From contig NZ_JMKT01000017.1 in assembly GCF_000686525.1 (NCBI RefSeq), positions 62,001 through 126,000 on the forward strand: a stretch of 64,000 nucleotides of DNA, in the 5' to 3' direction. Below, piece after piece: positions 17,181 through 18,706 of this stretch. Position 1 is the first letter of the stretch. Each line of letters begins with the position of its first letter. The notes under the pieces are model-generated. The model did no database searches. It was not told the origin of the DNA and was given only the letters and a program-made list of their open reading frames with translations. The translations under genes were made by a program, and so were the position numbers. Source of the stretch: Desulfonatronovibrio hydrogenovorans DSM 9292 (lineage in GTDB: Bacteria > Desulfobacterota > Desulfovibrionia > Desulfovibrionales > Desulfonatronovibrionaceae).

Positions 17181-17810
17181 CTAGAACCTGTACCTCAGAC
17201 CCAGGACATAGAAGTCCGAGGCCCCCCGGACTCCTCCGAAAAGTCCGAACACCCCGGATCGGTGATGGATTCTGTAAACCAGACTGTACTTCGGATATCC
17301 GGGCAGGGTCAGGGCCAGTTCAAAGGCCAGATAATTCAAAAGCCGCTGGGACTTTCCCCTGATCTGAACTTCCCGCTCAGGAGTCTTGGAAGTAAGAGAC
17401 ATGCCATCGCCTATAGCCGCTGACGTATGCAGGACATGATTCCATGGAAAGTTGTCATACCTCAGCAAAAAGGCCAGCACGTACTCTTCGTAATCCTGAT
17501 GACCCTCTTTGTGCCTTCCATGATGCTTGGCAAAAATGCCTTCCAGCTCCAGGGCGAAATCATCCCAGAACCGGGTCAGCTCCCTGGAAAGACCCAGACC
17601 ATGCAGATACTTTCTCTCAAATTTGCCCGGGATATTGAAAGTGGTCTTGCCAAGGGTCCGGTTTGTGTAAACGCCGTTGTAAAGGGTCAAGGCCCATTGG
17701 TAATCTTTTACCCTGGCTGGGGGAGAATCATTCTCACCAGCTGCACCTGGTGCAGCCGTCAACAACATCACCATAAGGCAAAACCATGCCCCAAAAAATT
17801 TCAAGCCCAC
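17181..17810 (-). CDS. Predicted outer-membrane beta-barrel protein
   Basis: A 209-residue exported protein. The GTG start at 17810 has GGGAGG upstream and begins a normal signal peptide ending near APGAAGEN; the longer frame from 18089 lies inside the MsrA gene and is discarded. The mature part alternates aromatic and polar residues and ends in YRF, the usual outer-membrane barrel ending. HHRSGVFGLFGG near the C-terminus recalls PagL-like lipid A deacylases, but the family cannot be fixed by eye. It follows the MsrA gene by about 100 bases on the same strand and may be the last gene of that operon. Confidence 0.65.
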   Translation of the reverse strand: MGLKFFGAWFCLMVMLLTAAPGAAGENDSPPARVKDYQWALTLYNGVYTNRTLGKTTFNIPGKFERKYLHGLGLSRELTRFWDDFALELEGIFAKHHGRHKEGHQDYEEYVLAFLLRYDNFPWNHVLHTSAAIGDGMSLTSKTPEREVQIRGKSQRLLNYLAFELALTLPGYPKYSLVYRIHHRSGVFGLFGGVRGASDFYVLGLRYRF

Positions 17811-17913: not shown

Positions 17914-18582
17914 TCATCTGGACATGCGCTTCTGCAGAAATTCCAGGGAGTTTTTAGAGAGACCCAGCTCTTCCAGGCTGCCATCCAGCATCTTTGAATC
18001 TGTGTATCCGCCAAGGATGCCGTTAACTCTGGCTGCAGCCGTAGAACGGACCAAATCCTTGAAGTCAGGATAGATGACCTGAAATTCATCCCTTAAACTG
18101 GAATATCTCTGCAGGTAAAATTTCTGATGATAGTCTTCAGCTGGAAAAAATTCCACATATCTGAGTACCTGGGTGACCACATTTCCGGAAAGCCTGTCCA
18201 TGCTTTTAAGGATCTTTTCCTTTTGCTCATCCGTGTGATAAAATACCGCATTCATATACTGCCTGGACCAGGGCTGACTGTTGTAGTCATGTTCGCCCCA
18301 GAATTTCCTGAGCAGATCTTCATAAGAAATCCTTGCTGGATCAAACCTGATCTGAAGGCTTTCCATGTGATCCCCGATATTGCGATATGTGGGATAAGGA
18401 CTTGTTCCCCCGGTGTAACCCACTACAGTTTCATAAACCCCGTCCATGATGCCGAATCCGGCATCAGGCCCCCAGAATCAGCCCAGGGCAAAGGTTGCTG
18501 TTTCCAATTCATGGGGCCTGGACCCGTCTACAGGTGGAATTGCTTTGGGGATAAAATCTGATTGACTTGATGCAGTGCCCAT
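17914..18582 (-). CDS. msrA: Methionine sulfoxide reductase A with selenocysteine (in-frame UGA)
   Basis: Read through the TGA at 18478-18480, this frame gives a complete 222-residue MsrA. Before the TGA comes HELETATFALG and after it FWGPDAGFGIMDGVYETVVG, so the TGA sits exactly where MsrA has catalytic Cys (GCFWG); Sec would be residue 35. Further MsrA marks follow: GYTGGTSPYPTY, GDHMESLQIRFDP and FWGEHDY. There is no other Cys, so a resolving Cys is absent. A hairpin fitting a bacterial SECIS follows the UGA. The start at 18582 has GGGAGG four bases upstream. The frame continues upstream (18583 to about 18717) as a hydrophobic, signal-like stretch, so a longer exported form is possible. 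It repairs methionine-S-sulfoxide. Confidence 0.88.
18447..18466 (-). promoter_or_regulatory. Candidate bacterial SECIS hairpin in msrA
   Basis: On the minus strand TGATGCCG, loop GATT, CGGCATCA makes a perfect 8-pair stem starting 11 bases after the UGA. The loop begins with G about 20 bases after the UGA. These values fit the known rule for bacterial SECIS elements (loop about 16-37 bases downstream, G in the first two loop positions). The element lies inside the coding sequence, as expected in bacteria. Confidence 0.8.
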
Positions 18583-18706
18583 GCTTCCTCCCATCCCGAA
18601 AATATTAATCAGCAAAACAATTGTAAAAGTCAGCCGGAAAAAGAAATATCTTAAAGACAAACCAGAGCCTGGCCAGCAAGCTCCGGCATTGTTCATTCCA
18701 GGCCTG

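Follow-up and report, generated by a model that had tools for sequence, protein, structure and literature searches.

On the minus strand of the 64,000-nt stretch of Desulfonatronovibrio hydrogenovorans DSM 9292 DNA analysed here (the window), a gene for methionine sulfoxide reductase A (msrA) contains a TGA codon where the catalytic cysteine is expected, raising the question of whether this codon ends translation or is read as selenocysteine (Sec). Our analysis indicates that the msrA product very probably carries selenocysteine in its active site. A selenoprotein call previously made from the raw sequence in a first-pass annotation is thereby confirmed; standard annotation would end the protein at residue 34 or restart it at the ATG at 18447.

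An in-frame TGA at the catalytic position of MsrA

The translation of the msrA frame reads MGTASS...ETATFALG-UGA-FWGPDAGFGIMDGVYETVVGYTGG..., with the UGA occupying the catalytic Cys position of GCFWG and the catalytic G-C/U-FW motif of MsrA covering residues 34-37 (Table 1). The reading frame stays open and conserved before and after the TGA, and the Pfam domain PMSR (PF01625) spans it (residues 28-159, 2.8e-35, 122.3 bits versus a cut-off of 23.7), bearing out the proposal that the catalytic Cys codon is a TGA with MsrA sequence on either side. There are no Cys codons in the 222-aa frame, so a resolving Cys is absent. The first-pass annotation had already reported this lack of other Cys and considered it notable in a Sec enzyme; the absence stands but is less remarkable than that, since the MsrA of Clostridium (Alkaliphilus) oremlandii, CoMsrA, was already known as a protein of 209 aa with one Sec and no Cys (PMC4333827). 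A search of the host genome with the window protein found no second MsrA; one MsrB gene is present.

Table 1. Features of the msrA locus, in positions of the window.
Feature	Position	Strand	Basis or remark
Sec-MsrA coding sequence	17914..18582	minus	222 aa + TGA stop; ATG start 18582, TGA stop 17916-17914; PMSR 122 bits
TGA = selenocysteine 35, catalytic residue	18478..18480	minus	UGA read 18480-18478; aligned with Sec16 of CoMsrA
SECIS hairpin	18447..18466	minus	directly 3' of UGA; stem TGATGCCG 18466-18459, loop GATT 18458-18455, stem CGGCATCA 18454-18447
C-terminal helical domain, about residues 176-222	17917..18057	minus	Pfam + structure model
Shine-Dalgarno-like GGGAGGAAGC	18583..18596	minus	sequence; immediately 5' of ATG
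Promoter-like site TTTACA-17-TATTTT	18599..18627	minus	consensus match only
Terminator-like hairpin, between response-regulator gene and msrA	18661..18687	minus	consensus match only

Selenocysteine machinery of the host

The host genome (2.94 Mb, 98.9% complete) encodes SelA (617.6 bits) and SelB (403.5 bits), both above curated cut-offs, and a tRNA-Sec scoring 82 bits against a gathering score of 47. Its selD (376.9 bits, above the curated cut-off) has an in-frame TGA of its own, in the context ...TETVKGAG-U-ASKLSPGDLD. The first-pass annotation had named a lack of selA-D genes as refuting its call; selA, selB, selD and tRNA-Sec are all present.

A SECIS hairpin directly downstream of the UGA

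Published limits for bSECIS elements are a loop of 3-9 nt, a stem of 4-16 bp, a G in the first two loop bases and a spacing of 16-37 nt (PMC13188914). The msrA hairpin lies within every limit tested (loop, stem, G position, spacing), showing a perfect stem of 8 pairs and a 4-nt loop, GAUU, with the G first. Its UGA-to-loop distance of 19 nt falls inside the 16-37 nt range, confirming the G-first, 8-pair hairpin at the right distance that had been noticed before. The predicted energy of the 45-nt fold is -18.4 kcal/mol (z -2.45), a value that 3 of 200 dinucleotide shuffles also reached. An Rfam scan of the window gave no match at the gathering threshold.

When the 15 codons after the catalytic codon were recoded synonymously, 1000 times per sequence, the window hairpin was equalled by 1.1% of recodings (p 0.011). 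Among the Sec copies, p was <0.05 in 35 of 83 and <0.01 in 10, versus <0.05 in 0 of 23 Cys copies, a comparison that is not like for like because the Cys copies are mainly from another MsrA subfamily; the three Cys copies from the same subfamily gave p values of 0.24-0.35. Codon choice follows a strict pattern as well. On the 3' side of the stem, Gly is always encoded by GGG in the 78 sequences from outside the host's bacterial family and always by GGC in the five from within it; neither GGA nor GGT occurs. Within this family, the stem is one base out of register relative to the others, yet it is kept, forming 6.4 of 7 pairs versus 5.5 elsewhere; the msrA SECIS can evidently change register with the hairpin retained. 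Taken together, the constancy of the Gly codon, the recoding result and the survival of the register-shifted stem provide good evidence that the hairpin is under selection at the RNA level. A permutation of synonymous codons among the sequences outside the family (5.46 versus 5.38 pairs of 7; 1 of 2000 permutations) shows that RNA-level coupling beyond residue composition is small, with residues and codon preferences explaining most of the pairing.

Minor new details are this other pairing register in the host's family and, in the window copy, the hairpin loop. A GAUU loop occurs just once among the 83 copies, nearly all others having G-U there, and is without the G-G/U dinucleotide of most bSECIS loops; for both reasons, UGA decoding could be less efficient. 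We consider it unlikely that the register shift (GGC for GGG) and the loss of the loop dinucleotide mean that SelB of this lineage recognizes the SECIS in a co-adapted or relaxed way.

Distribution of Sec and Cys in the MsrA subfamily

In a sample of 150 genomes from the host's order, some MsrA was found in 121 and the short type in seven, including the host. All seven short-type MsrAs (those of the host and six relatives) have one TGA at the catalytic site, and selB scores above its cut-off in each of the seven genomes; since selB is also common among order members lacking Sec-MsrA, this co-occurrence indicates consistency rather than a sharp association. Widening the sample by a GTDB contig scan added 80 further loci. 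Within the CoMsrA-like clade, 83 of 86 members have TGA, those with Sec coming from many phyla, and three have Cys (L078, L126 and L129), the latter nested at separate places in a rough tree whose bootstrap is not fully settled. Because the Cys forms are nested separately among TGA rows, Sec is, as judged from these sequences, the prevailing state in the helical-domain MsrA subfamily, and it looks as if Cys replaced Sec separately in each of the three Cys forms. Thus, Sec and not Cys is usual here across many anaerobic phyla, with a few separate changes to Cys, a result that is useful for selenoprotein annotation and conceptually no surprise. One of the three Cys forms is from a MAG nominally of a Thermoplasmata archaeon.

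Between the catalytic residue and the C-terminus, 57 of the 83 Sec proteins contain no other Cys, making the Cys-less state common in the subfamily and not special. In many Nitrospirota and Chloroflexota Sec-MsrAs, the C-terminus is a Cys-Pro tail (..CPL, ..CPV) whose Cys, absent from the window protein, might be a resolving one; in several Planctomycetota and Chloroflexota copies, a Cys follows the Sec at a distance of about 66 residues instead (loci noted: L074, L081, L082, L088, L090, L102, L116, L119, L127, L130 and L138). At another locus (L147:2907-4983, G038:C168), the Sec-MsrA gene directly adjoins a Cys-type MsrA gene, whose 369-aa open frame looks like an MsrA/MsrB fusion.

Alternative readings of the TGA

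Could the TGA be a true stop, or else a recent nonsense mutation or a sequencing error? The msrA gene would then be a pseudogene or give a 177-aa protein that restarts at the ATG at 18447 without the catalytic residue, and a table-11 gene caller indeed yields exactly this ORF. Yet a sequencing error is ruled out by the retention of TGA across many phyla, in 83 of the 86 members of the subfamily, and the open, conserved frame on both sides of the codon, the conservation of the hairpin at the codon level and the Sec machinery in the host genome all speak against a stop. Conservation in these sequences already refutes, in the main, this reading, to which we give next to no credence. Readthrough of the UGA by another route, that is, near-cognate suppression or reading as Trp to give a non-Sec protein, is just as improbable: we found no support for it, most reading frames of the window terminate normally, TGA is the stop codon of msrA itself and of other genes, and selA-D and a SECIS are present. 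The window protein is almost certainly a selenoprotein MsrA of the 1-Cys type (here 1-Sec), of the same kind as CoMsrA.

Predicted fold and proposed mechanism

By phmmer (about 1e-45, residues 25-203), CoMsrA of C. oremlandii accounts for all the best solved relatives of the window protein. An AlphaFold model based on 30 sequences, the protein's own and related ones, has a mean pLDDT of 92.4 and aligns with the CoMsrA structures 4LWL and 4LWJ over 201 columns in Foldseek (TM 0.80-0.81 by query, 0.86-0.87 by target), versus a TM of about 0.55-0.59 by query for ordinary MsrAs. While the match to PF20939, the "Selenoprotein methionine sulfoxide reductase A, helical domain" (residues 176-216), stays below its cut-off (19.5 versus 23.7 bits), the model places helices between residues 155 and 221, in agreement with such a domain. 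With an offset of 19, Sec16, Tyr47, Glu55, Gln89 and Tyr90 of CoMsrA correspond to Sec35, Tyr66, Glu74, Gln108 and Tyr109 of the window MsrA, all of which are invariant in a 30-member alignment.

The two enzymes (CoMsrA structures 4LWJ, 4LWL and 4U66) thus share Sec as the sole catalytic residue, zero Cys, the GUFWG motif, a short MsrA core, the C-terminal helical domain and the conserved Tyr/Glu/Gln/Tyr active-site residues. They are about 40% identical and come from different bacterial phyla, and the window MsrA differs by an N-terminal extension of about 19 residues and by its GAUU SECIS loop. In contrast, the 2-/3-Cys MsrAs of E. coli (1FF3) and M. tuberculosis (1NWA), which have the same MsrA catalytic fold, rely on Cys, a resolving Cys and thioredoxin, are without a helical domain of this type and align over about 150-180 columns. 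Sec-MsrA features in lists of known selenoprotein families (PMC13188914, PMC9312934) and was listed in 2006 for Syntrophobacter fumaroxidans, likewise a selenoprotein-rich anaerobic deltaproteobacterium, which we liken by that listing (PMC1794560). Given the CoMsrA match and the 2006 listing, the Sec-MsrA of the window is a further case of an enzyme type that other anaerobic bacteria were already known to have; we found no literature on Sec-MsrA in close relatives of the host.

For CoMsrA, the Sec form is 20-fold more active than a Cys form, the reductant is glutaredoxin and not thioredoxin, and the helical domain is required (PMC4333827); a dimer via the catalytic residue is possible during catalysis and is resolved by glutaredoxin (PMC4479559). 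From the codon, machinery, hairpin, homology and predicted fold described above, we infer by analogy how the window MsrA would be decoded in the cell, act with the same chemistry and be reduced. SelB and tRNA-Sec would insert Sec at UGA codon 35, directed by the adjacent downstream hairpin. The Sec selenolate would attack the sulfur of methionine-S-sulfoxide, with Glu74 (CoMsrA Glu55) donating a proton; Met would be released, and a selenenic acid would remain on an MsrA whose active site the C-terminal helical domain would hold together. Since there is no resolving Cys, the enzyme would have to be regenerated by a thiol from outside, a glutaredoxin or a small thiol being the likeliest. As in CoMsrA, this might involve a transient homodimer joined Sec to Sec.

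A candidate reductant, by its annotation, is a glutaredoxin-like protein with a CIHC motif (L055:1489-2072, contig C9 of the host's own genome), whose gene lies directly before and overlaps that of a ferredoxin-thioredoxin reductase beta chain; no thioredoxin gene separates the two. Unlike in the CoMsrA system, the partner glutaredoxin of the host would, on what was found, be a non-selenoprotein, and the host genome yielded no UXX-star or Sec-glutaredoxin partner. Four of the six Sec-MsrA relatives (L149, L150, L151 and L152; G032, G012, G042 and G138) encode a glutaredoxin-like protein of UXX-star family 1, which was not found in the congener G060 either. These proteins have two in-frame TGAs, which in the two that we read lie in UPYT near the N-terminus and UGV at the C-terminus. 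The UXX-star family is the known NF041114, and it could be a reductase partner of Sec-MsrA.

Genomic neighborhood of msrA

Upstream of msrA, on the same strand, lie genes for a histidine kinase (22126-20687), a lipoprotein-like protein (20775-20086) and a sigma-54 response regulator (20086-18707), a trio that resembles GlrK-QseG-GlrR and reached no NCBIfam equivalog cut-off. The first-pass annotation had placed msrA in a QseE/G/F-like operon; as part of such a regulatory operon, the enzyme would act in that signaling pathway, and msrA does follow the response-regulator gene on the same strand at a distance of 124 bp. This gap contains both the terminator-like and the promoter-like site, and the two-component genes are not beside msrA in the two congeners with Sec-MsrA (G060, G012), where a downstream gene of ~208 aa is kept. 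The operon setting is therefore unsupported and quite unlikely, and the position of msrA beside the two-component genes is best seen as incidental adjacency.

An all-against-all comparison of flanking ORFs across 87 loci revealed no conserved operon partners besides this genus-level neighbor; the other large clusters are either antisense ORFs or genes of generic kinds, for ABC transporters and response regulators. In the window, the neighbor is a 209-aa unannotated protein (17184-17810, minus strand) without a Pfam or NCBIfam match, and its gene also adjoins msrA in L143 and L145. Its N-terminus is signal-like, and the C-terminus, ..LRYRF, resembles that of an outer-membrane barrel.
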